Positions 5,203 to 56,466 of a stretch of DNA of 64,000 nt are shown here, in pieces. The notes below the pieces were generated by a model. It ran no database searches, was not told the DNA's origin, and was given only the letters and a program-made list of their open reading frames with translations. A program made the translations under genes and the position numbers. Numbering within the stretch: position 1 is the first letter of the stretch; each line of letters begins with the position of its first letter. The stretch is taken from positions 14,384,420 through 14,448,419 of the forward strand of contig OZ038387.1 of NCBI GenBank assembly GCA_964036045.1, written 5' to 3'. The DNA is from Eutreptiella sp. 'Long Island Sound 2002'. Taxonomy: Eukaryota; Euglenozoa; Euglenophyceae; Eutreptiales; Eutreptiaceae.

Positions 5203-5778
5203 ACACAGTCACGCGCAGGCGAGCACCGCAACCAATGGCCCCGGCCACGTGTATCGCGGTCCCATGGTATCGGCACATGCATGCCCCGCCCACAGACTAC
5301 CGGCATGCGTAACATGTAAACGGCTCCGCTTGTCAGCGGCTCCATGCTGTGTCAAAGGCCACCACGCTCTAGGGTATGTAGACCGCAGACCACTGTCCAA
5401 GGTCTGCCCGACGCACCCTGATGCAGCGGAGGGGTACGGCACTGCTGCCAACAAGGACATTACAAGGTTAATACCCCGCACAAAGGTTTGGGCAAAAGGA
5501 CAGCGCCAGCCCCGGTAGGCGCCAACAAACGACCCCGGCTGCAATCCGCAGCCCCAGCACGTTCGCGGATGCATCCACGCTCACCACACTTACCCCCCAC
5601 ACCGCCAGCCCCCAAGCCACGGAGACCCAAATCCCCGATTCCCCCCTCCCCTCCATCCCCGCGGCCGCGGGGGATGCAAGTGGATGATGATGACACGGCA
5701 GTGGTGAGGACCCTGTTTTTCACGGGCCACGGGCGTGCATCATCGGATCAAAAAATACCGGTTGCATCACCGGGCTAA
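5203..5778 (+). pseudogene. Zinc-finger/GHGRA protein, copy 2 (frameshifted)
   Basis: Finger 1 (from 5282) has the family pattern C-x2-H-x4-C-x2-C-KRLR, then PCC-x2-GHH. After about 5425 the frame of finger 1 runs to a stop at 5518. The rest of finger 2 (GVRHCC-x2-GHYKV) and the proline-rich stretch continue in another frame to 5778, ending in the tail FFTGHGRAS. The segment holding the CPRC half of finger 2 is missing, so a deletion with frameshift has destroyed this copy. It is closely related to the ORF at 39480-40091. Confidence 0.6.
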
Positions 5779-5824
5779 ATATACCGGTTGCGTTGCTGCC
5801 ACATATGGGTCTCCCTCGTTAATA

Positions 5825-6514
5825 TTACAAGGGATGCCCCTCGTGATGGCGGCTGCACCAGTGCCACACCCCCCTGTGCCCCTTGCATGACTTGCATGCT
5901 GGGGCCCTGTGCTCATCGCACGGGGTCTGCATGGGGCGGCGCCGCGGCTGCCCCACCCTTTTTCCCCCCGCCCGCTGCGCCCTCTTCTGTGGGGGGGAGG
6001 GGGGTAGGGACTCTCCCTGATGCCCTGTAGCTGCCCCTGGGGAGGGGGGGGGGCTGCCCCGCCCGCGCGGCGGACGTCGCCGCCACGTCCCCCCCGGAGC
6101 CATCCCTTGTGGGCTGGGGGTCAATCGGCTTCTCCTGCCCCCCCCCCCCCTTGAAGAGAGGTCCGCTACCCCTGGGGGGCGGCCTGTGCCCACCCCGGGG
6201 GCCTGGACCCCCGCACGGGCCATTGTCAGCTGGCGCGAAATGTTCCCAAAAATGTCCGCTAGCCCTTGGGAAGAGGAGGGGGGGGAGATGGAGGGGGGGG
6301 AGGGGGACAGCCCCCCCCCCCCCCCCTTATTGCGGCCGCCCGGGCTACCTGCCAGCGCCTGCGGCACCTGCAGCCGACCCCCTGCTGCCCCCCCGTGCCC
6401 TGGCGCTCTCCCCGGGGGGAGTGAGGGGGGGGGGGGGGGCGGCAAGGGCCGCCGGAGCTTCCCCCGCCCATCCAACATGCCTGAGCCGCTCAGGCTGTGT
6501 GCCCCCCCCATCAA
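5825..6514 (-). pseudogene. Proline-rich ORF ending in a family zinc finger
   Basis: A 229-codon minus-strand frame, mostly proline/glycine/arginine because it crosses many C/G homopolymers. Its last 35 residues form a clear family finger: C-x2-H-R-x-P-x-C-x2-C, RG, WHWC-x2-HHEGHP. The finger is nearly the same as the relic at 49557-49650. The upstream part may not be real protein. The finger itself is real homology and is oriented opposite to the neighbouring elements. Confidence 0.45.
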
Positions 6515-9135: not shown

Positions 9136-9714
9136 AAGGCAGCTTCGTTGTTCTCATGTGGCCTTTGCTGCTTCGCCGTGCTACTAGACAGATGACAGGT
9201 ATTCTTGGGTGAGTATCCTAGCCTCTGCATGCGCAGTATGCACGCAGTGCGCACGTAGTGCAAGAAGTTCCCCAATCTTCGCACGAGTACTTGTGCGCTG
9301 TGCGATGTCGGGGTCTGAATAATTGTGGTCTAAGGCATTCTTTTTCTCAGTGGCTGTAATAGGACGAATTTCGAAGCACGCAGGACAAAGTCCAAGCACA
9401 CACAATGACAAAGTTAACATCCCTGCCCATTCCAGCTGTTGTTCTAGACGACAACAGTGTTCCATTGGGAAGGGGGTGGGGTGGCTTATCTTGATAGAAA
9501 TCACTCCAAGTTTTGGGGCCTCAGCCTTACAGCGGGGCGGGGCTGGGGGGTCCAAATATGCTGAAGTGCTTTCTGAATTCAAGGGCTGCAGGGCATCAGC
9601 GGGGGGCACCCAAAACCCCTCTCCCCAAAATGGCTTTGCTTTGGCCCAGTGCACATGGGAAGCACAGGGAGAGGGACGGGCAGTAGGGCATGGAACGAGG
9701 CAATGCCTTCCTAG

Positions 9715-12700
9715 CATTTTTCTCGGATTCCTAATGTTTTCCTCGGGTTCCTAGAGCTTTTCTCGGGTTCCTAGAAATTTCCTCGGGCCCCTAGATGTTT
9801 TCTCGGGTTGCTAGAGTTTCCCTCGGGTTCCTAGAGTTTTCCTCCGGTTGCTAGAGTTTTCCTCGGCGGGCTACATTTTTCCTCAGGTTCGTAGAGTTTT
9901 CCTCGGGTTCCTAGAGTATTCCTCGGGTTCCTAACATTTTACTCGGGTTTGTAGACTTTTTCTTGGGTTCCTAGAGTTTTCCTCCAGTTCCTGGAGTTTT
10001 TCTCGGGTTACTAGAGTTTTCCTCGGGTTCCTACAGTTTTTCCGGGGTTCCTACAGTTTTCCCGGGGTTCCTAGAGTTTTCCTCGGGTTCCTAGAGTATT
10101 CCTCGGGTTCCTAGAGTTTTTCCCGGGTTCCTAGAGTTTTGCTCGGGCTCCCAGAGTTTTTCTCGGGTTCCTAGAATTTTCCTCGGGTTCCTAAAATTTT
10201 CCTCGGGTTCCTAGAGTTTTCCTCGGGTTCCTAGAGCCTTCCTTGGACTCCTAGAGTTTTCCTTGGATTCCTAGGGTTTTTGGGGGGTAGCTGGAGTATT
10301 CCCTGGTTCCTAGAGTTTTCCTCGGGTTTCTAGACTTTTTCTCCAGTTCCTAGAGGTTTCCTCGGGTTCCTAGAGTTTTCCTGGGGTTCTTAGAGTTTTC
10401 CTCTTGTTCCTAGAGTATTCCTCGGGTTCCTAGAGTCTTTCTCGGGTTCCTAGAGTTTTCCTCGGGTTCCTACAGTTTTCCTCTAGTTCCTAGCGTTTCC
10501 CCCGGGTTCCTAGAGTTTTCCTTGCGGTCCTAGAGTTCTACTCCTGTTCCTAGAGTTTTCCTCGGGTTCCTAGAGTTTTCCTTGGGTTCCTAGAGTTTTT
10601 CTCGGGTTGCTAGAGTGTTCCTCAGGTTCCTAGATTTTCCCTCGGGTTCCTTGAATTTGTCTCGGGTTCCTAGAGTTTGCCTCGGGTTCCTAGAGTTTTC
10701 CTCAGGTTCGTAGAATTTTTATTGGGTTCCTAGAGGTGGGAAGCACAGGGAGAGGGACGGGCAGCAGGGCAGGGAAAGAGGCAACGCCTTCCTAGCGTTT
10801 TTCTGGGGTTCCTAGAGTTTTTCTCGGGTTCCTAGAGTTTTCCTCGGGTTCCCAGAATTTTTCTCAGGTTCCCAGAGTTCTCATTCGGTTCCTAGAGTTT
10901 TCCTCGGGTTTCTAGAATTTCTCTTGGGTTCCTAGAGTTTTCCTCGGGTTCCCAGAGTTTTTCTCGGGTTTGTACAGTTTTCCTCGGGGTCCTAGAGTTC
11001 TCCTTGGGTTCCTAGAAATTTCTTGGGGTTCCTAGAGTTTTTCTCGTGTTCCTAGAGTTTTCCTCGGGTTCCTAGAGTTTTTCTCGGGTTTCTCGAGTTT
11101 TCCTCGGGTTCCTCGAGTTTTTCTCGGGTTCCTAGAGTTTTTCTCGGGTTGCTAGAGTTTTCCTCGGGTTCCTCGAGTTTTCCTCGGGTTGCTAGAGTTT
11201 TCCTCGGGTTGCTAGAGTTTTCCTCGGGTTCCTAGAGTTTTCCTCGGGTTCCTAGAGTTTTTCTCGGGTTTCTAGAGTTTTCCTCGGGTTGGTAGATTTT
11301 CCCTCGGGTTCCTAGAGTTTTCCTAGGGTTCTTAGGGTTTTCCTCGGGTTCCTAGAGTCTTTCTCGGGTTCCTAGAGTTTTCCTCGGGTTCCTACAGTTT
11401 TCCTCTAGTTCCTAGCGTTTCCCCCGGGTTCCTAGAGTTTTCCTTGCGGTCCTAGAGTTTTCCCCGGGTTCCTAGAGTTTTCCTCGGGTTCCTAGAGTTT
11501 TCCTTGGGTTCCTAGAGTTTTTCTCTGGTTGCTAGAGTGTTCCTCGGGTTCCTAGATTTTCCCTCGGGTTCCTTGAATTTGTCTCGGGTTCCTAGAGTTT
11601 GCCTCGGGTTCCTAGAGTTTTCCTCAGGTTCGTAGAGTTTTTATCGGGTTCCTAGAGGTGGGAAGCACAGGGAGAGGGACGGGCAGCAGGGCAGGGAAAG
11701 AGGCAACGCCTTCCTAGCGTTTTTCTGGGGTTCCTAGAGCTTTTCTCGGGTTCCTAGAGTTTTCCTTGGGTTCCCAGAGTTTTTCTCGGGTGTGTAGAGT
11801 TTTCCTCGGGTTCCTAGAGTTCTCCTTGGGTTTCTAGAGTTTTCCTCGGGTTCCTAGAGTTTTCCTCGGGTTCCTAGAATTCTCCTCGGGTTTGTACAGT
11901 TTTTCTCGGGTTCCTCGAGTTTTCCTCGGGTTCCTCGAGTTTTCCTCGGGTTCCTCGAGTTTTCCTCAGGTTCCTCGAGTTTTTCTCGGGTTGCTAGAGT
12001 TTTCCTCGGGTTCCTCGAGTTTTCCTCGGGTTCCTCGAGTTTTTCTCGGGTTGCTAGAGTTTTCCTCGGGTTCCTAGAGTTTTCCTCGGGTTCCTAGAGT
12101 TTTTCTCGGGTTTGTACAGTTTTCCTCGGGTTGCTAGAGTTTTTCTCGGGTTGCTAGAGTTTTCCTCGGGTTCCTCGAGTTTTTCTCGGGTTCCTCGAGT
12201 TTTCCTCGGGTTCCTAGAGTTTTTCTCGGGTTGCTAGAGTTTTCCTCGGGTTCCTAGAGTTTTCCTCGGGTTCCTAGAGTTTTTCTCGGGTTTGTACAGT
12301 TTTCCTCGGGTTGCTAGAGTTTTTCTCGGGTTGCTAGAGTTTTCCTCGGGTTCCTCGAGTTTTTCTCGGGTTCCTCGAGTTTTCCTCGGGTTCCTAGAGT
12401 TTTCCTCGGGTTCCTAGAGTTTTTCTCGGGTTTGTACAGTTTTCCTCGGGTTGCTAGAGTTTTTCTCGGGTTCCTAGAGTTTTCCTCGGGTTCGTCGAGT
12501 TTTTCTCGGGTTCCTCGAGTTTTTCTCGGGTTCCTCGAGTTTTCCTCGGGTCCCGAGAGTTTTCCTCGGGTTCCTCGAGTTTTCCTCGGGTTCCTAGAGT
12601 TTTTCTCGGGTTGCTAGAGTTTTCCTCGGGTTCCTAGAGTTTTCCTCGGGTTCCTCGAGTTTTTCTCGGGTTGCTAGAGTTTTCCTCGGGTTCCTCGAGT

Positions 12701-13853
12701 TTTCCTCGGGTTCCTCGAGTTTTCCCCGGGTCCCGAGAGTTTTCCTCGGTTTCCTAGAGCTTTCCTCGGGTTCCTAGAGTTTTTCTCGGGTTGCTAGAGT
12801 TTTCCTCGGGTTCCTCGAGTTCTCCTTGGGTTTCTAGAGTTTTCCTCGGGTTCCTAGAGTTTTCCTCGGGTTCCTAGAATTCTCCTCGGGTTTGTACAGT
12901 TTTTCTCGGGTTCCTCGAGTTTTCCTGGTTCCTCGAGTTTTCCTCGGGTTCCTCGAGTTTTCCTCAGGTTCCTCGAGTTTTTCTCGGGTTGCTAAGGTTT
13001 TTCTTCGGGTTCCTCGAGTTTTCCTCGGGTTGCTAGAGTTTTTCTCGGGTTGCTAGAGTTTTCCTCGGGTTCCTAGAGTTTTCCTCGGGTTCCTAGAGTT
13101 TTTCTCGGGTTTGTACAGTTTTCCTCGGGTTGCTAGAGTTTTCCTCGGGTTCCTAGAGTTTTCCTCGGGTTCCTCGAGTTTTTCTCGGGTTCCTCGAGTT
13201 TTCCTCGGGTTCCTAGAGTTTTTCTCGGGTTGCTAGAGTTTTCCTCGGGTTCCTAGAGTTTTCCTCGGGTTCCTAGAGTTTTTCTCGGGTTTGTACAGTT
13301 TTCCTCGGGTTGCTAGAGTTTTTCTCGGGTTGCTAGAGTTTTCCTCGGGTTCCTCGAGTTTTTCTCGGGTTCCTCGAGTTTTCCTCGGGTTCCTAGAGTT
13401 TTCCTCGGGTTCCTAGAGTTTTTCTCGGGTTTGTACAGTTTTCCTCGGGTTGCTAGAGTTTTTCTCGGGTTCCTAGAGTTTTCCTCGGGTTCCTCGAGTT
13501 TTTCTCGGGTTCCTCGAGTTTTTCTCGGGTTCCTCGAGTTTTCCTCGGGTCCCGAGAGTTTTCCTCGGGTTCCTCGAGTTTTCCTCGGGTTCCTAGAGTT
13601 TTTCTCGGGTTGCTAGAGTTTTCCCCGGGTTCCTAGAGTTTTCCTCGGGTTCCTCGAGTTTTTCTCGGGTTGCTAGAGTTTTCCTCGGGTTCCTCGAGTT
13701 TTCCTCGGGTTCCTCGAGTTTTCCCCGGGTCCCGAGAGTTTTCCTCGGTTTCCTAGAGCTTTCCTCGGGTTCCTAGAGTTTTTCTCGGGTTGCTAGAGTT
13801 TTCCTCGGGTTCCTAGACTTTTCCTTGGCTTCCAAGAGTTTTTCTCGGGTTCA
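9715..13853 (+). repeat. 20-bp minisatellite, about 207 units, with higher-order structure
   Basis: The consensus unit is TTTTCCTCGGGTTCCTAGAG. Variants include TTTTT-CTCGGGTTGCTAGAG, a CTCGAG-ending form and a TTTGTACAG-ending form. The array keeps its register for more than 4 kb with few indels. A 50-bp non-repeat spacer (GGGAAGCACAGGGAGAGGGA...) recurs near 9657, 10736 and 11657. A block at about 12432-12617 is repeated without amino-acid change at 13431-13616, 999 bp away. The 61-codon frames inside the array are by-products of the repeat, not genes. Confidence 0.95.
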
Positions 13854-32676: not shown

Positions 32677-35600
32677 ATGCCTCGGCCGTCATGGCCCGCC
32701 CACACACATCGGCCTCAATGCACGACCCTCTTCACGACCCGCCCCCTCTGTCTTCGCCTCCCGTTCTTCGCGGTGTTGGCGCTTCTGTGGCTCTCCGCCG
32801 GGGCCGACGGCGCTCCAGCCACCGTCCGTGTGCTGGACCTCCGCAGCGCAGCCGTGAAGGACTCGGGCGGCGAAGGCGTGTCAAGGCCCGTGACGAACCC
32901 CCCGTCCCCGCAGAACCTCCCGTGGTCCGCGTGCGGCCACTACACCGCCGCCGCGGACCCGCACTGGGCCGTCGATCTGGGCGCCCCCCGTCTGGTCGAG
33001 CGGGTGGTGCTCTACAACCGCAACGACTGCTGCCCCGAGCGCCTCGAGGGCGTGAGCCTGCGCCTGGGGCCCCGCTGGGACGCCCCCACCGCCAACCCCC
33101 TCGTCGCTTCGGGGCTCCGCGTCCCGCCGAGCGCCCCTCTGGTCGTGCACGCGCACCACAAGGGCCGGTACCTGAGCGTCGCACGCCCGGGGGCCTCGGG
33201 GCTCACCCTCTGCGCCATCGAAGTGCACTACTACGCGGAGGACTGCGCCGCCCTCGCGCTGCGGGGCGTCGCGCACGCCGCTTTCCAGTTCCTGAACGCC
33301 GACTACCGCGTCGACGGGGCGCACAACGGTCTGCCGGTGTACCGGGGCCCGGCGGCTGAGCAGCCGCAGACTGCCCCCGCGTGGTCCCACGCGTCGACGT
33401 CGCCCGCGGCGGGGGCGCAGATCGTGATCTGGAGGGAGGCCGCCGCCGGGGGCGTCTGGAACGTGGGGTGGGCGGTGGGGGACGGGAGTAGGCGGTACGG
33501 ATTTGTGACTGGCGTACCCCCCGGGGCCGCGTCGCCGTACGACGGCCGCGTGTTCCTGGCGTCGTCGTGGGACGGGCGGATTTACGCCAACGCGCCGGCC
33601 CCGGCCGCGGAGTTCGAGCACTGCCCCCAGTTCGAGGCCGTGTCCGGGGCGTACGCCTGCACCGTAACCGGCGCGGCCTGCCGCCGGGTCACGCGGTGCG
33701 TCGCGGCCGCCGCCGCGGACGTGCCCGGCGCCGCCTCCGGAATGCCTCTCGGCGCCCTCGGGGTCACGTGCTGCGACGGCGCCGGCCGCGGCAGCCGCCC
33801 GGACTGCCTCGCCTCCGCCACTCATCTGACGGCACAGCGCCACTGCGAGAGCCACGGGTTGGCGCTGTGCACGGCCGCACAGGTCCGGAGCGGGGCCGGG
33901 GAGGCGACCGGGTGCGCCTTCGATGAGGGGCTCGTGTGGACCGCCACGGCCTGCGATGGGCCGGTGTTGCTGGGCACCGACAAGTCCTGCGACGAATCCC
34001 TCGGGCTCGCGACGAGGCTTCTGCAGCGGCGGGAGGCGACACTTGGCGCATGCGAAACGGCGTGTCGCGGGGACCCCCGGTGCACGCACTTCACGTATTT
34101 CGGCGGCCTTTACGAGTGCCGCCTGTTCGAGGGCTGCTGCCCTCAGGACGCAATGTACGTCACCACCTCCAAACCCTCGGAGACGTACGCCCTCGGCTCC
34201 GCCTCGCGTCGGGCGTGCGCACGCCCGACGCAGGGCCGCACCGCCTCCCCGAGCCCCACGCACTCGCTATCGCACACGTCCTCTGGCACGCAGACAATCG
34301 GGCCCACACAGTCCCACTCGTGGACCCCCTCGGCGAGCCCCACGTCGGAGCAGACCGTAACGACGTCCCCAAGCGCTACGCCGCCCGCCTCGATGTCAGC
34401 CTCATGGACCGCTTCCCCCGCTCATACCCACAGCCCCACGGCCCCGGACACCCCGACCACTTCCGCAACCCCCACGCACACCCCCGGACCCACTCCCACA
34501 AGTCGGGCCACATCCACCGCCTCCCGCAGCCCTACCCCATCCCCCAGCCGCTCCCCGACCCCCACTGCCTCCACCCGCCCGTCGCCCACTCCTACCGGCT
34601 CCTCCACCGCGTCCGCTACGCGGGGCCCCAGCGCCACCCCTACGCCCACGTCCACCCGCACCTTCGAAGGCCTCACTCCCTCAAGCCCCATGGCCCTGCT
34701 CTTGGACATGCCGGTCGACCAGTTCGATGCTGCCGCCGCCGAGATCGTCCGAGCGGTCGTGGGGGAGCGCCTGGGCCTCCCCCGCCATCGAGTCCACATT
34801 CTGTCGGTGACCCCCGGGTCAACTGTGGTCGTGTTCCACGTGCTGGTGCCGAGTACCCGATCGGACGTGTGGGTGACTTCGAAGCTTCAGGGCGCGGAAC
34901 CGGCCCTGGAGGCGGCCCTCCGCACCCACGGCCTGGCCCACGCGGTCATATCTTACGTCCCGCGAGCTCAGACGTCGTGGACCCCATCCGCCGGGGCCGC
35001 GGCCACCGCCGCGTGCGCGTACCGGCACAGCAGCCAGGCCTTCGTCGTGGAGGCCGCGTCCGGGGCCTTTGGTCCCCTGTGGCCCTCGTCGGACCCGGCG
35101 GAGGCCGCGCGCGCCGACCCTGTGGCTGTCGCGGTGCGACTCCCGGCGCCGCAGACGTCCGTGGCCCGGCCGCTGCACGCGGACTTCACCGCTACCCGCG
35201 CCGACTGCTGCGTGTTCGACATGCACGTCACCGCGACCTGGCGCTTGCTGGCGCCCAACGGCACGCACGTTCTGGCGGCGCTGCAGGCGGCAGGGACTGC
35301 GCGAGTCCTGCACGGGTCGCGGCTGGTGGTGTCGCCGGGGGCGTTGGGGGCGGAGGCCGGGGTGTACACTGTGGGAGTGGAGGTGCGGCACACGGCCTCC
35401 GGCGCTGTCCTGGGCATCGGGCTCACGAATGTGACCGTGATGCCCACCCCCCCCCAGGGCACGGTCGCGGTCGTGCCTGAGGCCGGGCAGGCGTTGGGCA
35501 CCGCCTTCACGCTGAGGGCGTGCGAGGGCTGGGGCGACCCGGCGGTGCTGCGCGCGTGGGTGTTCACGGTCCGCTCCTCGGCCCTTGCCCGCCCCGTCAT

Positions 35601-36858
35601 CGTGGCGCGCAGCGCGTCATGCGAGGCCGTCACGCCGCTGCCGGTGGGCCTGCCCCTCGCGATCGAGGGCTGCGCGCGCGACGCGTACGGGGGTGCCGCG
35701 TGCGGCACCGCAACCGCGACGGTCCGGTCTGTGGATCTGGACGCGGGGGCTGTCCAAGCGTTGGTGGCGGACATTGGGGCGTTGGACGGGGCGGTGGCGC
35801 AGCTCGCGAGGGCGTCGATGCTGTTGCAGGCGATCCGGGAGATCCGGGACCGCGCGGAGCGACGCTGGCTCAAGGAGGCCCTTGCCCAGCAGCTGCGGGA
35901 CCTGGGCACCTGCGGTCCGCTCGTCCAGAGCGCCGACGACGTGCGGTCCTGTGCGGCCGTCACGGCAGACCTGGCGCAGGACGGCGCAACCGCCTCCGAT
36001 CGGCTGCGGGACGCGGCGGCCCAAATGGCAACCGAGGCGCTGCTGCAGGGCCTGGGTCTCGGGGTGCCCCTGGCGGACTTGGACGTGCAGACGGTCGCGG
36101 GGACGCTAAGCGGTCTCCTGGGCTCCGCCGTAGCGCACTCCCGCTTCGCCACGCGGATGGTGCGCCTTGTGGCCGCGGTGGCGGAGCGCGTGTGCGCGGC
36201 GGCCGCCGGTGCCGGGGACCCGACGCTGCGGGTGGAGACGGCGGCGTTCGGGATCGGCTGCTTCGGCCTGTCCTTCGCGGCGGCGGCCGGGGACACCGTC
36301 AACGTCTCGGGGGGCGTGGCGCTGGTCCTCGGCCCCGAGGTTGTCATGCAGGCCGCGGCGGCGCAGGCCCGCACCGTCGGCGTCACGGCGGTGCAGTTCG
36401 CGCAGGCGTTCCTTCCCAGCGATACGCAGGCCCTCGCCCCGACCACAGTGGCCGTGGTGCCTGCGCTGAGCGCGGAGGTCGACCCGCCCATTGTTCTTCG
36501 GTGGGCCACCGCTGGGACCGCCCTGCACTCGGCCCTTGTCGCCACCGGGGGAGATCCGCTCGCCTACGACCTGCGGTGCGTGTGGTGGGCCTGGGACGCG
36601 GCCGACGGAGGCACGTGGAACACCAGCGGCTGCACCACCGCAGTGCAAGGGGAGGCCGAGGTCGTGTGCAGCTGCTCGCACTTGACGGAGTTCTCCGTGG
36701 CGCTGGTGCCGAAGCCAAACGTTTTCACGGGCAGCGACGTCGCCGACATCGACGACAATGTGGCCGACTCCCCCGGCCTTGTCATAATGCAGGCGGCCCT
36801 GCTGCTGATCGCTGGGGTGTTGATGCTGCTGGGCTATGCTGTGGACAAGCGGTGCCAG
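32677..36858 (+). CDS. Exon 1: extracellular head, stalk, GPS and TM1
   Basis: ATG at 32677 is preferred over the non-ATG frame extension at 32668. The lectin-like part contains HWAVDLG and NRNDCCPERL, hallmarks of F-type lectins, whose family binds fucose and often Ca2+. Next come a Cys module with CESHGLALCT and VWTATAC, and an apple/PAN-like segment with cysteines around TYFGGLYECRLF. A stalk of TPSPS-type repeats suggests heavy O-glycosylation. The exon ends VDKRCQ at CAG|GTACAC, phase 0. Confidence 0.8.
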
Positions 36859-39800
36859 GTACACGGATGCAGGGCTCGCGAGGGTGTTGACGCTACTTGG
36901 GACTGCCTTATGTTAGGGCGGTCTTTAGGGACCCGGTTTTTTTGTTCGGAAATGACAACGACCATCTAGAACCCTCCACAAAATTGCAGCAGATATCCAG
37001 ACAAGGGGGGCCGCCTGGTTCAGAACCCGCACCCCCCCCAGGGTACCCCCACCACCAGGGACTACCACCCCCTGGGAAAGGTGCTATCTGGATGGGGCAG
37101 CCCTGCCACGGCCATACCAAGTGGAAGAAGGTATGCCCAAATGCTAGAGGCACTTGAGAGCAAACCTGAGATTGTGGAGCAACATGTCAAACAGCCAAAT
37201 GAGGTGACTACCCCATGTGTGGCCCACTTGGGTGTCCATGTGGTCTAGAACGTGCATTTCACCTTGAGGAAGTTTATTGTTTGTACATTGGTGGCGGCAT
37301 TGGCATGCAGTGATAGATACCGGGGGGGCTGCGGCAATTTGCTCCCTTGAAAGAAGCCCCCCAAATGGCCAAAATACTTGTTTGCTCTTTGTAGATGGCT
37401 CCTTGGCTCTTCCTGCAAGGTGTCCCACAATAGTGACATGGATGCCAACGGGATGGCAGACGCAGGGCGGCACACGGCTATGGAGGTGGTGTCGCTTTCT
37501 CCCAATTCAATTCCGCTTAATCACACAGGCCCAGTTCATCTGCAAGTATTACCCGCATCTCGCCCCCCGGCTTGTGGCCCCGCGCTCTTTCGTCGGGCGG
37601 TTGATCCACACCCACTTCGTCGCGACCGCCCTAAATCCCACGCCTGCGTCCGATCATGGCCCGGCGCAGGTCCCTGCTGCGCGGGAGACGCTCTGCGGCA
37701 TCGGCGTCGACGGATGGAAAGCAGTGAAGCGGAGACACAAGTACCTGGGCACCTTCTATCACCCCATCGGGACGCACTACACCACCCCGCAGCGCGTGGC
37801 CACCATCACGACCCTCGTGTTCACAGTCGGCGTGCTGGTGTCGTTCTGGTTCGACGTTGCCAGCTTCAACACGCCCGGTCGGGTCTTGCAGAAGCTCCTG
37901 CTCGCTTTCGTCAACCTGCTGCTGCTGGCCCCCCTCCAAATGCTGCTGCATCTTATGTTCGCCAACTCCAGGTCCTGCAGCGCCTGGCTGCGTGGGTGTG
38001 AGGGTGGCGATGGGTCGTGCTCACGTGTCTTCCTGAAGCCTCGTGGAGTTTGTTTGGGCATGTCCGTGTCCTTCTTCAGGCACAATTTGAGCTGCTGGTT
38101 CCGAAACCGCTGGAGCTGCAGTCGGAATTGACAAGAAGCGGTGGGGGCGTTTGCTCGGGAGGGGGGCGGGGGCACCCAACCCAGACCCCCTTTCAAGCGC
38201 AGGGCCGGGGGCAGGGGGAAGTGGAGGTGTGCTACGTCCCCCTGGCCTCCTTTTCCCATCAGCCCAGAAGAGGCTCCGCGGCAAACGGTAGTAATATGCG
38301 GCATTGTCCACGGGGACCGCACAGTCCAAAAGATGTGCGTGTCATCCGCGGAGTACGCGTGTGAGACACCAGGACACGCCTCAACAATGACTCGGCGTAT
38401 CCCGTTTTCCAACAAAGCGCACAATGCGCGTCGGATGTCGTGTGCATTGGGAATGCTCCGCCGCCCGGGAGTGGCGTTGGGGACGACAGACCGTGGGGAC
38501 GATGCGGTGGATCCGTGCGTGCGGCGTTGGACGTCGCGAGAGCCACGCCGCGGGTATCCGCTGTGCCTTGTGTGATGGATGACCCAACGCGGCGTGCGAT
38601 AAATGGTCCTCCGGCAGCCGAACACAAAACACAAGACTCTGACCGCAAGAGCTTAACTGAGAAGACAGACTGTCAGACTGTGGTCTGTCATGCCCACAAA
38701 AAATTGATGAGCACTGCAGCCTGTCGGAGGGGCCGCGACCTGTGTTTGAAAGAGAGGGAAGCCACAGGGTAGTGCAATGAGCGCCTCAAAACCAATTGGT
38801 GACAGTTATGATGTCGGTTGAGGAACACGATGCCTTTTCCTCTACTCCTACCTCTGCCGTTGCTGCAACATTTCCCTCTGTTTTTGCCTCTACCTCTGCC
38901 TATGCCTTTATCTTTACCTCTGCCAGCGCCTCTGCCTCCACTGCTGCCTCTGCCTCTGCCCTGGCCATAGCCTCTGCCTTTGCATTCACTTCTTCCTTTG
39001 CCTATGCCTTTCCCTTCGTCTCAATCTCTGTCTCTGCCTGTACATCTACCAACGGTCCGCAAATGGGTCCACTGATGTTGCTGCTCGGGTGCCTAACGAC
39101 ACACAATTCTGCCCCTCGCCTTCAACATAACTCTTGCTCATATTTACCGCCAACAAGAGGTTCGGGCGGGGCGCTACTGTCATTTATAGCAAAGGTAACC
39201 ATGGTGACTCGGGGGCTAATGTGCTTTAAACCACATAGCCCACCCTTGTTTGCTCGACTTGCCATTTTCTCAGCCATTTTGGTTCATTGACAAAAACAGC
39301 TTTCTACAACCCCGCTCACCCCCCACCCCAACCCCCGGTCGCAAGGCTCCTTGGGGATGAATTTGCGCCCATTATTTAAGTGAATAGGGTTAGGGGTGCC
39401 AGCTAGTCAACCCCGATGTGTGAGGGGGCACTGACACACGGGGGCACTGACACACACATACACACACACACACACACATGTGATCCCTGTGATAGGGGAT
39501 GGGAAGCTCCCACAGCGCCCCTACACCGGGACACGCAGGCGCGCGAACACACACAGGGCGCCACAACCGGCGCCGCCGGCTGATCCGTCTAAGTGCGCCC
39601 AGCACTCTGCTACCGCATGCACGACCTGCAAAAGACTTCGGCGCACAGCTGAAGCATGCTGTGCGCTGGGACATCACGCTGATGACCATATAGCACGCAG
39701 GCCGCAACTGCAGCTATGCCCACTGCATGGCCTGCCACCATGCCCGAGGTGTACACTCAAGCAAAGGGGAGTGCGCCACTGCTGTCAGCGGGGACACCAT

Positions 39801-41239: not shown

Positions 41240-44200
41240 GTCAGCCCCCAAAGGCGGCCGGGGCGACGTCTCACACAGGCGCCCCGGCTGACCCTCTGTG
41301 AATCTCGCACCCCCTGGGGCTTTGGGGGACATGCATTCGTACCGCCCATGTTGTCCATGCGAAGGGCCCAAAACCGCCCCGAAGAGAGGCAGGGTGGGCC
41401 TCAGTTCTCCCGTCAAAAAAGTGGCACAAAAGGCTGAATACCCCACTGTTCCCCCCGAAGTTTGACTAAACCGCTTGCAGGCACACTGCGAGACCCCCCC
41501 CCCACCCCCGCCGCCCGCCCCTTCCAGTGCTCAGCCTCGGCGTTTGCCGCTGCTCCTGCCTCCGCATTCCATGCTTTCGTGCCCATTGCCCCAGGTCCAC
41601 GTGGGTCATCCCAGGGCTGTTGCAGGAGCCCCTCCCCGAGTCGCCGCGGTGGTACCAGGAGGCCGCCCCCCCCGAGCGCTCCGGCGCGGGCCCTGGGACC
41701 CCCCAGTTTCTGACCCACCGGTCGGTCTGCACCGGGCGCTTCGATGACGTGATGCGCAAGGCCAAGAGCCAGGGCTCCTTCCGCAACACCGCCCTGCCCC
41801 AGTGGGTCCTCGCACACGTCCAGGCCCTGAATCACGGTGCCACGCTCGACAGAGAGGATGGGCTGCTGAGCCCCGCAGCCCGGACTTCCGCCCTCGGGCC
41901 CCGCCGTGACTCCGACACGTGGCGCCGTGACTCCGACACGTGGCACCCCCACGACTCTGACCGCCGGATGCCCCACGCTCCGGGTCCCCTCGACGGGACT
42001 GCACTCCGTCAAGACACTCCGAGCCACAGCGTTGCTCCGAGCCGTAGGCCCACTCCCACCCCGGCCCACGGTATGTGACTGGGCGTGTGCGATGTGGCGT
42101 GTGTGACTGGCCGCACGGCATGTGATAGCACTCTCTTCTCATCTCGTCTTCTTTTTTTGGGTCCAAAACCCGCGGTCTGGCGCATAGTTATGGCCCTCAG
42201 CCCGGGACTCTTTTTGGCGGGCACTTGTGACGTCCCATGCCACAGCAACTGTACTCGCACAGACATAGCCCCCCCCCCCCTTTTCCCCCGCTGCAGCACC
42301 GCATTGCCCTCGGGGCTGGGGCATCCCCAAGCCTCCCCTGGCCCTGGCATTCAGACAAATCCGAAGGGGCCCATTTCCCCCGGGGCCCTGCCGCTGCCGT
42401 AAAACCGTCCGCTGGGGCGATGCGCTCAGCGCAATGGGACACACAAATCCGGGGCAAATTGCAGTGGCAGGGCACTGCCGGGGTCACACGTGTAATGGCG
42501 GTGGATATAGTTCAAAGTAACAACACGCATTGTTTTTACACAATTTATACCCAAAGTAGAGTGAGGCTTGAGATCGGTACTTTCGGGAGAACAAACAGTC
42601 GGCACTGCGTGCGCCCTCGCCCCGGACACTGACCCCCCACACTGATCCCGCCCCCTGTGCAGATCTCAGTGCAGACCGTACCCTGAACCACGTGAATGTC
42701 AGCCTTCGCCTTGACCAACGCCCTCGAAGCATTGACCAGGATCCTGCCGCACGTCTCACTTCCCCCGCCTTGGGCGCCGCAGTTGACTGCGATGCAACTG
42801 GGGACCGGGACTCCAGCCCCAACTCCTCCTCCACCGCAGAACTGATCGAGCACATCCCGAACTCGAGCTCCACTGCCGAGCTCCTGCCCGATCCGATGGA
42901 CTCACTGGGGACGCCCACCTCCACAACATCACAGAGCCCCCCCAGGGTCGTCGCTGCCCCGCGGTGCCCCCCGCAGGACGGCGAGGAATACCTTCGGTCG
43001 GTGGCGGCGCGGTGCACACGGGACGAGCCGTTGCTGGCGGGCTTCGCACTGGTGCTGATCCGACAGCAGCGCCAGCAGGAGCCCTTCGAAACGCCCGAAG
43101 AACGCCGGTTGCTTCAGGACGGTTTCCGGCGGTTGTTTGAGGGGGCGCAGGGCCCGTCGCCCAAGCGCGCGGTGTTATGGCGCCTGATGCTCATCGCCAT
43201 CTGGGGCCAGCAGGGGCCGTGGGCCGTCCTGCTGCTGCGGGCCGCCCTCTTGGCCACGCACATCGACTTGGAGGTGGTGTTCGACCAGTGCCCCGGGTGC
43301 TTCGAGGTGGCCCTGCGGCAGGTCACGCTCATGGCCCCGCTGCTGCTGGACCGCCTGCAGTGCCCGCCGGTCGAGAGGGACGACCACCTGCAGCGGCTGC
43401 GGGACAGCCTCGCGGGTCTGCGCCGCGATTGGCACAACGTGTGGGTGCTCGGGCCCGCCGCCGACGCCGCCGTTGACGTGGTGGAGCCTACAGAAGCGCC
43501 ACCCCCCGAAGGCCCGTCGCCGACTTCAGGGCCCGGGGCCCGGGCCCGGGGCGCGTGCGACGGTGCGGGGCTGTGTGGCGCAGCGTGTGAGGCCCCCCGC
43601 GTCCAGACCGCCGTCGGGGGCAAGGCCCCCGCTACGGCCGTGCCGGGGGGGTCACCGGCGTCACACGTCGCGGCAGACGGCAGCCCCCACAAGGCCCCGG
43701 GCGATTGGACGTGGGTTCAACTCGGGCCTCGCGGGGACTGTGCCGCGAAGGGGCCGCCCGCCGGCCCCGGGCCCCCGCCCGCCCCTGAGCCACCCGACCT
43801 CCAACGACGCCGATCCGTCCCCGAATTCTCGCAAAGCCCCGCCCTCAAGTGCGGCGCAGTGGAGCCGCACGGCGGCGGGACGATGTCCGATGGGTCGCAC
43901 GTTCGGTTCCCCGGCCGACCTCTCGACACTCAACACCCCCTCACCAAAACGGCCGACAGTTTAGACCTCCGCAACGTCTGGACGACAACAGACGGAGGGT
44001 CCCTTCGCGCGTCCCTCTCGGCGTGTCCACACGATGCCCCCGATGCCGCGGCGGAGCGGGCCCAGCGCCGGCCGTCCACCCCCGAGCCCCACGCCAAACG
44101 CTCCAGTTGGTCCAATTTCGCCCGCGGCCTGCAGCCCTTGGCCCTCCCGGTCCGCGAACCCCGCCTTCAATGGCCCGGCCCCGTCCGGCACGGCCACAGC

Positions 44201-45676
44201 GGCCAGCCCAACTCCCCCGACAACGCCGCCGCCGCCGCCGCCGCCGCCGTCGCCGTGACGTCCTCCGTCGTGAAGGAGGTGCTGGTCACGGACCGCGGCC
44301 TCGACGTCCCGCGCCCGCCCCCCTCCCTCCCCCCGTGCCCCATCTGCCGCTGGGTCCAGGGCACCGACGCCGTGCTCCACGACGTCCCCCGGGCGGTCGC
44401 GTGCTTCGCGCTGGGGCAGCCCCCGGTGCCCCCGGCCCTCACGCAGGGGCTGCAGCAGCGGGCCTCCCCCTGGCCCCAGTTCTGGGCGCTGTTCCACGGC
44501 TGGTGGCACGGCGCGCCGGCCGTGCCGCGGGACCTGCGGGCCCTCGTCCGTGGCAACCGTCAGCGGTGCGCGCGCGACGTAGGCAAAGAGCTGCGGATCC
44601 GGCAGCTTCTGGGGGGCGGCGCGGCGGCCGCCGCCTCCAGACCGCATCGCCGGGCGCCGCTCCAGCCCAAGGACCGGGCGCCGGGCCCTGCACCCGCGGC
44701 GCTCCCCGTCCTGGCGCCCCCGTGTCCCCAGCATGAGGCGGCCGCGCTGGGGCCCGGGTGGGTGCCGGACCCGGGGCAGTGCGGCCCGAGCCCCGCGACC
44801 GGCCCCCGGCGCCTTGCGGGCGACTCGTCGGACACGGCCGCGGCCGCCACGCCCGTCCCCCTGTCCGTCACCGTCAACCCGCTCTTGGGCATGCCGGATG
44901 CGCTGTTCGTGGGGCCGACGGCCGGGGTGGCGCAGGCCAAGACAGGGTCCGTCCTCCGCCCCTTCCATACCGTCGAGCACGCCCTGCGGCACATCTGGAA
45001 GGGGCAGAGCCTCGTGCTCCTGCCAGGGGTCTACGCCCCGTTCAAGGTCCGCAACGTCGTCGCCACCGCCGCGCATCCCGTGCGGGTGCTGGCGCTGGGG
45101 CGCGTGCTCGTCGTCTGGCCGAAGGATGTACCCCGGCGCAAGCGGTCGCCGCTGATCAAAGTGCGCGGGTGCAATCACGTGGTCTTTGCGGGGCTGCAGC
45201 TGAAGGCGGAGGACGGGCTGGGGCTGGACATCGGGAGCGACTGCTGCAACGTCACGATGCGGGGGATGATCGTGGAGGGCAGCCACCGCTGCTACCGCCT
45301 CCCGGACGCGGAGTTCAACAACATTCGGTTCGTGGACTGCGTGTTTCACGAGAAGGAGCAGCAGTGCCTGAGCCGCGCCGTGCGCCGCTGCGAGGGGGCC
45401 CGACTGCCCCATTGGTACGCGAGGATCGGGTACGCCTTCTGTGCGCTGTGGATCGGGCTGTGCATTTTCCTGCAGCTCGCGATGATGGGGGCCATCAAGC
45501 GCACGAAGGACGAGGACCACGTCGGGATGATCGTGCTCTGGGTCTTGACGTTTGCAGTCGACATCTTCATCGTGCAGCCGATGATGTGGCCGCTCGAGTG
45601 GCTCCTCTTGGGGAAGCGCTTCGATCCCTCGTGGATCTTGAGTGAGCCGATGGGCATTGAGCTGGACCTGTCATGA
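32677..45676 (+). CDS. Polycystin-1-like REJ/GPS receptor with internal beta-helix, four exons
   Basis: The exons are 32677-36858, 37529-37971, 41595-42070 and 42663-45676. Junction phases are 0, 2 and 1, all introns are GT-AG, and the sum is 8,115 nt, giving 2,704 residues and TGA. Order: N-terminal hydrophobic signal (about 28-46); F-type lectin-like domain (50-190); Cys-rich modules; Ser/Thr/Pro stalk (about 520-670); REJ/GAIN-like region; GPS motif C1331-S-C1333-SHLT; TM1 (1368-1387); TM2 (about 1484-1505) and TM3 (about 1515-1538); a long cytosolic loop with a pectin-lyase-like segment (about 2440-2610); TM4 (2621-2645); TM5 (2656-2682). TM2-TM5 resemble polycystin-1, including the V-x-QP before the end of TM5. 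No PLAT domain and no six-TM channel block are seen. The likely role is as a surface receptor or adhesion protein. The exon joins are my inference from phase and splice signals. Confidence 0.75.
36859..37528 (+). other. Intron 1 of the polycystin-like gene
   Basis: GT...CACAG intron of 670 bp. At 36915-36960 it carries AGGGCGGTCTTTAGGGACC followed by a T run, a relative of the hairpin at 59819-59864. The exon 1 reading frame continues past the donor to a TAG at 36967, which would otherwise be mistaken for the gene's end. Confidence 0.7.
37529..37971 (+). CDS. Exon 2: TM2 and TM3
   Basis: Starts in phase 0 after CACACAG. It has a basic KRRHKYLGTFYHPIG stretch and then TM2 (ATITTLVFTVGVLVSFWF) preceded by TTPQRV, which corresponds to the polycystin-1 segment where S/T-R-x-QR precedes TM2. 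TM3 (LLLAFVNLLLLAPLQMLLHL) follows. It ends in phase 2 at TCCAG|GTCCTG. Confidence 0.75.
38835..39050 (+). repeat. Imperfect 6-bp-period pyrimidine repeat (CTCTGC/CTTTGC)
   Basis: CCTCTGCCTTTGCCTCTGCC-like words follow one another with 6-bp spacing. They code for an Ala/Ser/Phe repeat in one frame, which is a by-product. Confidence 0.8.
39480..40091 (+). CDS. Best-preserved tandem zinc-finger/GHGRA protein (retroelement ORF)
   Basis: 203 codons stay open from the end of an (AC)n tract to a TAG at 40089. There is no ATG in the frame, so the copy is probably 5'-truncated. Finger 1 (39594-39692) is C-x2-H-x4-C-x2-C-KRLR ... ACC-x2-GHH-x3-H. Finger 2 (39717-39808) is C-x2-H-x3-PC-PRC ... RGVRHCC-x2-GHHKV. 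A basic and proline-rich linker follows, then the conserved tail LFVTRHGRANT. Related copies lie at 177-743, 5203-5778, 48092-48589 and, as single fingers, at 5825 (minus) and 49557. Where it is followed by more of an element, the next ORF is a reverse transcriptase, so it is likely ORF1. A nucleic-acid chaperone role would be inference. Confidence 0.65.
   Translation: MIPVIGDGKLPQRPYTGTRRRANTHRAPQPAPPADPSKCAQHSATACTTCKRLRRTAEACCALGHHADDHIARRPQLQLCPLHGLPPCPRCTLKQRGVRHCCQRGHHKVCTPVPVRRKRPLTTQSQLPNKRPCPQGPARISTGLLRSPHQPPTPPAPKRRRPKTPPPPSPPAPVPRGLEETVAEDVARPLFVTRHGRANTLDT
40092..40225 (+). mobile_element. Retroelement 3' UTR (near-identical to positions 1-130)
   Basis: Follows the zinc-finger stop codon and leads into (AC)n at 40223. 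It has three substitutions against the copy at the window start. No reverse transcriptase lies between the zinc-finger ORF and this end, so the copy is an ORF1-only, non-autonomous derivative. Confidence 0.75.
40223..40271. repeat. (AC)n microsatellite
   Basis: Tail of the element above. The next retroelement fragment (RNase H relic) starts immediately after it. Confidence 0.95.
40294..40660 (+). pseudogene. RNase H domain fragment of a non-LTR retrotransposon
   Basis: One frame reads an RNase HI-like pattern: EALRAV, then IITDSKNIYDGV with the catalytic TDS, and SHVGIFGNKDADTLA, matching the family's HxGxxGNxxADxLA. TAG codons at 40417-40419 and 40438-40440 interrupt it. Codon use is AT-richer than in the ORF2 at 928, so it comes from a different element. 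Confidence 0.7.
41172..41236. repeat. (AC)n microsatellite
   Basis: About 64 bases of uninterrupted CA dinucleotides near the 3' end of intron 2. Confidence 0.95.
41595..42070 (+). CDS. Exon 3: start of the TM3-TM4 cytosolic loop
   Basis: Enters in phase 2 after TTGCCCCAG, completing the AG of exon 2 to AGG (Arg). It includes a segment with FDDVMRKAKSQGSF and a 21-bp internal duplication encoding RDSDTW twice (about 41908-41945). It leaves in phase 1 at CACG|GTATGT, a strong donor. Confidence 0.65.
42663..45676 (+). CDS. Exon 4: loop, beta-helix segment, TM4 and TM5, stop
   Basis: Acceptor CCTGTGCAG. Phase 1 entry gives GAT (Asp), so translation need not start at the GTG at 42692. The first part is Pro/Ser-rich with a helical block (about residues 1785-1880) and a C-x2-C pair (CPIC, about 2259). 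From about 44880 the pattern G-x2-G ... PFHTVEHAL ... GQSLVLLPGVY ... followed by short Val/Ile strands resembles a right-handed parallel beta-helix. TM4 and TM5 then follow, with a short tail to TGA at 45674. Confidence 0.7.
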
Positions 45677-54069: not shown

Positions 54070-56466
54070 ATGGCCTATCAGCCACAAGCGACCGCAGTGG
54101 CCAACCCCTACAGGCCCGCCCCCCTGCCCCAATCCGCACGTCTCGGCGCTGCTGCTGCACCAGAAGCCTCCGCGCTTACCCCAACGCCCCAGGACGTCAC
54201 GCCCGCTGCCCCGGCCTCGGGCCGCTCCACGGGCTGGGGCCCGGCTATGCCCAGTTATTGTCCTGCACCCACGGCCGCGCCGTATGCGGAGGGGCAGCAG
54301 ATCCTGCTGGTCGGAGAGGGGAACTTCAGCTTCGCCAAGGCCCTCGCCGCCACGTTGAGTGACTCCAGCGGCATCGTCGCCACTGCTCTGGACCCGCAGG
54401 CGACGGTAGAGGACAAGTACGGCGAGTCTGCCTTGAGCCAGGTCCCGCGCTGGGGTCACTTGCAGCCCCCGTCACCCCCAACCGCCCCCTTAACAGAATG
54501 ACTGCCCTCCGCCCCCCGTCCGGATGCCTGTGTGCCTCCTCTTGCCACGCCCCTGGCCCAGGCTTGCGGTTGAGGGGAGGAGCGGTACCCGCCCCCCTCC
54601 CCCCCCAGTGCCTACCTCACTCACAAGGGACGGCTTCAGTCAGTAGCAGTGAGTGTATGGCCAGGCGGCCGCCAGGACTAGCCCACTGGGGAGCGGGCTC
54701 CGGCACGATTCGCCGGACCCGACCGCATCATCAATCAGCCCTACGGATGGAGAGCGTGTCTGCCTCTCGATGATTGTGCATTGCCACCGATTTCAGATGT
54801 TCCCCCCGGGTCCAACGAATGCCTTGTCCAACGAACACTTCCGCTCGGGCCGTAATTTTTTTGGAACCGCATGAAATAGGGACCGGGTTTGGGTAGCGAA
54901 TTGGTTCGGTACCGAACGGCGTGTCCAACGAAGAGTCCTGCCCGGACCGTATTTTTTGAGGCCTTTATTGTTCGGGGGGGGGGGCGGGTACTGCACATTG
55001 CTTGCGATTGTCGCTTCACTCTGAGGGGCCCCTGAGAACTAATGACTGGAATTGCCCCGAGGCGGGGCATTCAGTCACTACCTCGATTGCGCCCTTGCTC
55101 ACCGCCTGCTGCTCTCATACCTGCGGATGGCGGTCCGCATGGGTGTCCACGCTGCCTGCCCATGCCCAGACGGCGCCCACACTTCCACACCGCTCGGCAG
55201 GTGCGCGCTCTGGTGGACCGCGGAGCACAGGTGCTGTTTGAGGTGGACGCCACGTGCCTCTCACAATACCCCGAGCCACTGCCCGGCCCCTTCGATTTTA
55301 TCATCTTCAATTTCCCGCACACCGGCGAAGCGCAGCACGGCGTGTCCCACGAGCAGGTCAAGCGCTCCATTCAGAGCAATCAGGCCATGCTCAGCGCCTT
55401 CTTCGCCGAGGCGCTACCCCTTCTGAGGCCCAAGGGGCAGGTCCACGTCACCCTCAAGAACTGTTACCCGTACAGCGAGTGGCAGCTCGAGGCCCTGGCC
55501 CGGCAGGCGGGACTCCATCTGCAGGCCATTCTGCCTTTTGAGAAGGCAGACTGGCCGGGCTACAGCCACAAACGCACTGCCGGGGGCCGCAAGAAGGCGA
55601 AGGTGTCCATGACGGGCCCGCTGACGTACTGCTTCGGGAGGGAGGCCCCAGGGCGCCCTGTAGACCGGTCTTTTGTGCAGGGGCCCCAGGAAGAGCATGC
55701 GCCCGAGGCACTTGCGCAGGTGCGAGCTTACAATGCAGTGCATCTGACCGTTGGCACCAGTGCGGTTATGCCAGCACCAGCTGCCAGCACCAGCAATCCC
55801 TATGCTCGGAGGGGGCCACCTGCAATGGTTGGTCTGGATGCCAGTACAGCTGCGGCTGCAGAATCCCCTGCCAAGGTGCGAGCTTACAATGCAGTACATC
55901 TGCAAATTGTGCCCACTGCAGCAGTCCTGCCAGCACCAGCTGCCAGCACCAGCAATCCCTATGCTCGGAGGGGGCCACCTGCAATGGTTGGTCTGGATGC
56001 CAGTACAGCTGTGGCTACAGAATCCGCTGCCAAGGTGCGAGCTTACAATGCAGTACATCTGCAAAACGTGCCCACTGCAGCAGTCCTGCCAGCACCAGCT
56101 GCCAGCACCAGCAATCCCTATGCTCGGAGAGGGCCACCTGCAATGGTTGGTCTGGATGCCAGTACAGCTGTGGCTACAGAATTCCCTGCCAAGGTGCGAG
56201 CTTACAATGCAGTACATCTGCAAAACGTGCCCACTGCAGCAGTCCTGCCTGCACCAGCTGCCAGCACCAGCAATCCCTATGCTCGGAGGGGGCCACCTGC
56301 AATGGTTGGTCTGGATGCCAGTACAGCTGTGGCTACAGAATCCGCTGCCAAGGTGCGAGCTTACAATACAGTACATCTGCAAAACGTGCCCACTGCAGCA
56401 GTCCTGGTGGCACCAGCTGCCAGCATCAACAACCCCTGTGCACGAAAAAGATCAAGACTGCCGTAG
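54070..56466 (+). CDS. BMT5: BMT5-like (DUF2431) 25S rRNA uridine-N3 methyltransferase, two exons, repetitive tail
   Basis: Exons 54070-54441 and 55201-56466 join in phase 0 (CAG|GTCCCG ... GGCAG), giving 545 residues. ATG 54070 is the first after an in-frame TAG. Residues 1-75 are Pro/Ala-rich. Then comes the SAM-binding signature ILLVGEGNFSFAKAL (78-92), continued in exon 2 by VLFEVDATCL and FDFIIFNFPHTG (155-166), the family hallmark, and LRPKGQVHVTLKN. The family methylates a uridine of large-subunit rRNA in the nucleolus. From about residue 298 the protein consists of four 52/53-residue repeats plus a partial one, absent from the family core. I infer the core is functional and the tail is lineage-specific. 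Confidence 0.8.
55720..56430 (+). repeat. Coding minisatellite, units of 156-159 bp
   Basis: Units begin at GTGCGAGCTTAC at 55720, 55876, 56035, 56194 and 56353 (the last is partial). Units are nearly identical at the DNA level. Because 159 is divisible by three, long frames also stay open in a second plus frame (55751-56650) and on the minus strand (55414-56382). These are shadows. Confidence 0.9.

Follow-up and report, generated by a model that had tools for sequence, protein, structure and literature searches.

The 64,000-nucleotide stretch of the Eutreptiella sp. 'Long Island Sound 2002' genome analyzed here (the window; G000:C10:14384420-14448419) encodes a large membrane protein that, on balance, appears to belong to a family of channel-less adhesion receptors similar to the PKD1/REJ proteins, in which a GAIN region is followed by five transmembrane helices (TMs; GAIN-5TM) and a β-helix lies at the end of the probably cytosolic loop between TM3 and TM4. 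The anatomy of the protein is very likely that of an adhesive head, a mucin-like stalk, a GAIN region with its GPS motif, five TMs that match those preceding the channel in polycystin-1, the TM3-TM4 loop, and the β-helix. Its four exons (Table 1) join into one open chain of 2718 residues ahead of the stop, and the last of them lies in an open frame of 1034 amino acids (aa) on the forward strand (42572-45676). The genome is GC-rich and comprises 2,280,300,865 bases in 2205 contigs.

A domain order shared by a large gene family

The order GPS, TM1, TM2-TM3, loop, β-helix, TM4-TM5, and stop, proposed in a preliminary description of this DNA, recurs in five relatives recovered from the same genome (Table 1). 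At each of these five loci, the GPS and the C-terminal module occur together in a single open frame, with GPS, TM1-TM3, β-helix, and TM4-TM5 uninterrupted, so the domain order is independent of the splice model. Two of the loci (C1:21.85M and C3:13.49M) are near copies over the portion seen. The window model aligns with the single frame at C22:1.04M both between the end of the ectodomain and the beginning of the loop (41% over 930 residues) and through the β-helix to TM5 (38% over 533 residues).

We used residues 667-1034 of the exon-4 frame to search the genome at E ≤ 1 and obtained at least 39 rows, window included: 17 from nine close loci (the window being one of these), 20 from as many distant loci (E ≤ 0.00122), and a further two with weak scores (0.38 and 0.67). 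Matches to the C terminus at E ≤ 0.002 come from at least 29 loci, 16 of which supplied the module alignment (the window plus 15 other places in the genome). All 16 aligned rows carry the motif V-x(9-10)-TGS-x3-P-x6-AL-x5-G-x4-LLPG-x-Y unchanged; because the eight distant rows share just 19 to 23% identity with the window, this conservation goes beyond chance.

The module is also linked to GPS motifs throughout the genome. Pfam GPS matches at least 31 places at E ≤ 0.001, and 23 of the 31 are followed on the same strand by a C-terminal-module match no more than 60 kb away (no more than 20 kb in 18 cases and 5 kb in 9), compared with 0.016 expected by chance at 60 kb; these counts, like those for the module and for PKD_channel, are lower bounds. 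For eight GPS matches (e.g., C12:41598056 and C2:175156103), no downstream module was found; these may be GPS genes of another type or genes whose modules have diverged beyond detection. Eleven of the 39 module rows (from eight loci, two of which are the weak rows) have no same-strand GPS match within 80 kb. The β-helix receptor feature is confirmed as a property of a large family, not of a single gene.

A first protein search gave no matches; a second returned P0001 (the window itself), P0002, and P0003, and a profile search returned P0002 alone. Both P0002 and P0003 are loci of the same genome as the window (100% and 99.9%). Because candidate length was limited, shared five-residue words were needed, and scoring in the second search and the profile search was confined to the top 7997 and 7991 candidates, respectively, these searches cannot show absence elsewhere. 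Pattern searches yielded 49 matches in viral_contigs and 9 in genome_contigs, none of which was confirmed.

GPS-to-module spacing is identical (4344 bases) at C19:6.63M, 14.42M, and 15.41M, which suggests recent duplications of one gene. Locus L027 carries the TM4-TM5 coding stretch twice in tandem (5592-5861 and 5819-6088) with different ends, which may reflect a local duplication or a second, alternative terminal exon. The ratio of nonsynonymous to synonymous change among duplicates, with few changes behind the figures, is 1.68 for the GAIN region of L022/L023 and 0.59 for the older pair L017/L028.

Membrane helices and the missing channel

Pfam GPS exceeds its cutoff in the window and in all four single-frame relatives scanned, and the HLT triad is kept in five of five aligned GPS rows. 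At E ≤ 1, a GPS-TM1 profile retrieved 25 sequences from PDB, with matches that go no further than the GPS and TM1. Adhesion G protein-coupled receptors (GPCRs) account for the 23 best (best, 7.7e-10), and polycystin-1 was absent from the 25. Polycystin-1 was the sole match, a weak one (0.058, 0.072, and 0.072), of a five-row TM2-TM3 profile searched against PDB at E ≤ 10, and the alignment covers residues 243-333 of chain 6a70_B. The TM2-TM3 similarity, together with the GPS, points weakly to a kinship with polycystin-1.

After TM5, four of the six close rows close with LYSL and one or two further residues (the endings of the window and L018 are different), and five distant rows of the TM4-TM5 alignment likewise stop soon after TM5. 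Because close and distant relatives alike end soon after TM5, the stop is no accident of the window gene. Domain PKD_channel matches at least 50 places in the genome at E ≤ 0.001, but not one of the 31 GPS matches is followed on its strand by such a match within 100 kb; channel domains are therefore present in the genome, yet none was seen attached to these receptors. The earlier proposal that the protein stops after TM5 without a channel block is supported by these results.

No PLAT match was found in the window exon frames (E ≤ 1) or in four relatives (E ≤ 0.01), and at E ≤ 1 the four window frames also gave no Pfam match to REJ, PKD repeat, or channel domains. Because PLAT, REJ, and the channel were sought and not found, the protein is not, by its sequence, a full member of the PKD1/REJ family. 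It shares with that family, polycystin-1 included, a large ectodomain, a GPS beside TM1, and the weak similarity in TM2-TM3, but differs in the domains just named, in the β-helix of its loop, and in its end after TM5. Departures from the canonical set of parts are described within the family: some SpREJ proteins have 1, 2, or 6 TMs, and human PKD1L3 is likewise without a REJ domain (PMC1934368). Adhesion GPCRs also have a GPS beside the first TM, but the present proteins have five expected TMs instead of seven, and their TM2-TM3 resemble those of polycystin-1.

The predicted β-helix

The segment that the preliminary description had singled out just ahead of TM4 is likely a right-handed β-helix, judging from profile matches of its relatives and from modeling, and its C-terminal edge lies approximately 25 residues before TM4. 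The NCBIfam NosD profile (TIGR04247) matches 5 of the 16 aligned rows (best, 5.8e-5; 5e-5 for a trimmed row); because these matches fall far below the family cutoff of 300 bits, they speak for the fold and not for membership in NosD. Structure comparison of a low-confidence model returned β-helix proteins as neighbors.

Other results were set aside. A single-sequence AlphaFold prediction of 44849-45673 (predicted local distance difference test, 45.6) and its Foldseek search (best E, 1.4) were uninformative; Pfam DUF1565 matched 5 of the 16 rows below cutoff (best, 0.076; trimmed row, 0.059); Pfam matches to MLVIN_C, HCV_NS4a, and DUF4896 were taken as chance; a PDB profile search with the C-terminal alignment retrieved 4mxn (0.39), a β-helix by structure comparison, and a mitochondrial protein (0.94); and the NCBIfam LIC10774 surface protein (5 of 16 rows, best 0.024; 5 of 10 in a second scan) was not used as evidence. 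Upstream in the loop, W75, G78, A89, and F93 of the second conserved block are kept in 15 of 15 rows. A tetratricopeptide repeat (TPR)-like reading of the loop blocks is not claimed, Pfam TPR being absent from the scanned L026 piece.

Sidedness of the β-helix

We consider, with good confidence, that the β-helix resides on the cytosolic side. The TM2-TM3 and TM4-TM5 loops of polycystin-1 are described as extracellular (PMC11458180), which places the TM3-TM4 loop inside, and 3 to 5 of the 15 residues that follow TM1 are Lys or Arg in all six proteins. The preliminary description had likewise put the domain inside; polycystin-1 topology and these charges agree, and it is from them that we infer the location.

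A false or missed TM would instead turn the β-helix to the outside or lumen, where it could act as a further adhesion or sugar-binding domain, a role that the PbH1 repeats of fibrocystin may play. Fibrocystin does carry its β-helices in the ectodomain (PMC7226761, PMC10487028), and the prediction of helices leaves some room for this arrangement: charges around TM2-TM5 are ambiguous, a hydropathy scan recovered all five expected TMs in three of six proteins but fell one or two short in the rest, and in three proteins it added weak TM candidates within the loop. Such an orientation is nevertheless unlikely, given that TM2-TM3 aligns with the TM2-TM3 of polycystin-1, a protein whose TM2-TM3 and TM4-TM5 loops are extracellular, and that the loop holds fewer sequons (8 in 3873 residues) than the region before the GPS (33 in 5432 residues). 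The sequon sums cover the parts examined of five proteins (L023 being excluded as a near copy of L022) and are confounded by Ser/Thr content, and in the window protein alone the densities show no clear difference.

A proposed binding platform rather than an enzyme

Many of the structure neighbors of the low-confidence model are polysaccharide lyases, epimerases, and esterases, as would be anticipated if the receptor bore an active carbohydrate lyase or epimerase. We regard such an activity as highly improbable, because no acidic residue of the β-helix is conserved to 85%. Of the polar columns that reach 85%, an Arg and a His are Ala and Asn in the window copy, and the best profile match, NosD, is itself not known as an enzyme. 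Both NosD and pectin-lyase-like β-helices, which the present domain resembles in the profile match of its relatives and the structure match of its model, are known as secreted or periplasmic proteins; here, the domain is short and placed between two receptor TMs.

Right-handed β-helices do occur inside eukaryotic cells, in the CASH domains of FBXO11 (PMC8825234), but FBXO11 is a soluble F-box protein. Fibrocystin (PKHD1), which like polycystin-1 is linked to polycystic kidney disease, is a membrane protein with parallel β-helix repeats, but it has a single TM and its repeats are ectodomain (PMC7226761, PMC10487028).

Gene model and points against the receptor reading

The junctions 36858/37529 and 37971/41595 are backed by colinear alignment to the intronless paralogue at C22:1043692-1052781 (3030 aa in one frame). 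Some results weigh against the proposed receptor. Junction 42070/42663 lies in poorly conserved surroundings and has no independent backing, such that the four-exon join advanced previously is supported in its continuous open frame and its first two junctions but not in its third. The window copy of the β-helix has no β-helix match in Pfam or NCBIfam at E ≤ 10, the matches being confined to its relatives. And there was no polycystin-1 among the seven rows that a TM4-TM5 profile retrieved from PDB, so the resemblance of TM4/TM5 to polycystin-1, claimed initially, gives way to the weak likeness of TM2-TM3. The top matches of that profile, a viral membrane protein (0.019) followed by the Mas receptor, were taken as hydrophobic chance.

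That exon 4 is a separate gene artefactually joined to a polycystin-like chain ending earlier might be read from the 3.6-kb intron between exons 2 and 3, with its unusual donor (GTCCTG), and from the unconserved sequence around the third junction, but this is scarcely credible in view of the five relatives with all parts in one frame and the colinearity of the window model with one of them over the 930 and 533 residues given above.

Variable heads and long stalks

The ectodomains of these proteins differ. The head encoded by exon 1 contains F5_F8_type_C_2 (3.7e-7) and PAN_1 (4.4e-5), both over their Pfam cutoffs, whereas that of C1:21.85M contains TSP1 (3.6e-14) and the N-terminal 478 residues of the C22 paralogue contain no Pfam domain; a "WSC-like" label for two N-terminal Cys-rich repeats of the latter was withdrawn, since Pfam finds nothing. 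Stalks are rich in Ser, Thr, and Pro and are very long in C1:21.85M and C3:178.45M. Such variable heads and long stalks would suit adhesion or recognition at a distance, and a similar role has been suggested for a brown-algal male-gamete REJ/GPS protein (PMC4700764). Ectocarpus Esi0130_0068, a male-gamete-specific GPS protein with 6 or 7 predicted TMs (PMC4700764), resembles the present receptors as an algal GPS protein with several TMs but differs in having a REJ domain; "beta helix" does not occur in that paper.

Proposed mechanism and implications

The arrangement of parts suggests how such a receptor could operate. The head, as its F5/8C, PAN, and TSP1 domains imply, would bind a ligand or a neighboring surface. 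The GPS, whose motif is present, would cleave itself at HL|T and leave the fragments associated; when the N-terminal piece is pulled off or loosened, a tethered peptide would act on the 5TM block, as in polycystin-1; and movement of TM4 would tilt the rigid β-helix, which would act as a protein- or glycan-binding output platform and not as an enzyme. Any ion current would come from separate polycystin-2-like channels in trans. Cleavage, tethered activation, and β-helix output, taken jointly, are a tentative scheme that we think somewhat doubtful as a whole. With a chance a little short of even, GAIN-5TM receptors could constitute a distinct class in which transduction falls entirely to the five-helix block and the signal is delivered by a cytosolic β-helix fixed beside TM4.

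To our knowledge, little is established about what the five pre-channel helices of polycystin-1 do. In a natural family made up of these five helices, a GPS, and a likely intracellular β-helix, the pre-channel block could be studied alone. The family also puts a fold familiar chiefly from secreted, sugar-processing enzymes into a receptor, on what is likely its cytosolic face. If the proposal is true, the pre-channel block can work channel-free, β-helices can be intracellular effector platforms of receptors, and the GAIN-5TM class takes in most GPS genes of the organism (23 of the 31 GPS matches). The parts are known; their combination did not appear in the open-access literature searched. Titles and the beginnings of abstracts on polycystin or GPS proteins together with protists or β-helices included no GPS-5TM-β-helix arrangement (most subscription papers lie outside this scope), and no paper of the open-access library searched combined "right-handed beta-helix" with "polycystin."

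Features of the window

Table 1. Positions of the receptor gene parts in the window and of the single-frame relatives
Feature	Position	Strand	Content or basis
Exon 1	32677..36858	+	Open frame, 1444 aa; F5/8-type C, PAN, stalk, GAIN region, GPS, TM1
Signal peptide (hydrophobic stretch in exon 1)	32746-32811		
Ser/Thr/Pro-rich (mucin-like) stalk	34228..34671	+	Translation
GPS motif with HLT triad	36577..36708	+	Pfam GPS, 1.2e-9, over cutoff
TM1	36775..36834	+	Hydropathy
Exon 2	37529..37971	+	TM1-TM2 linker, TM2, TM3; alignment to intronless paralogue
TM2	37796-37852	+	
TM3	37895-37960	+	
Exon 3	41595..42070	+	Start of TM3-TM4 loop; TWVIPGLLQEPLPESPRWYQ pairs with paralogue SWEIPGIAGLPFPDPPKWYQ
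Exon 4	42663..45676	+	Remaining loop, β-helix, TM4, TM5, stop; open frame
Loop conserved block 1, probably helical	43169..43285	+	Conserved with P0003
Loop conserved block 2 (W..G..........A...F), probably helical	44258..44512	+	
Right-handed β-helix (pectin-lyase-like) domain, predicted	44897..45361	+	
TM4	45437..45496	+	
TM5	45521..45580	+	Followed by 31 codons, then TGA (45674-45676)
Single-frame relative	C22:1.04M		3030 aa
Single-frame relative	C1:21.85M		3849 aa
Single-frame relative	C3:13.49M		6387 aa
Single-frame relative	C3:167.8M		1471 aa
Single-frame relative	C3:178.45M		4114 aa

Rfam and ARAGORN scans of the window gave no matches, and one 21-base form of the dinoflagellate spliced-leader sequence had no exact match in the 2.28 Gb of the genome. 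Elsewhere in the window, a tandem array of a 20-bp unit (TTCCTAGAGTTTTCCTCGGG; 207 copies) with strong AT skew occupies 9708-13852, and a 159-bp tandem repeat (4.2 copies, 96% matches) at 55769-56441 overlaps a 474-aa open frame (55042-56466). Among 105 other window frames scanned, two match a BMT5-like methyltransferase (best, 5.5e-34) and two match EF-hand_1 (best, 1.1e-11).
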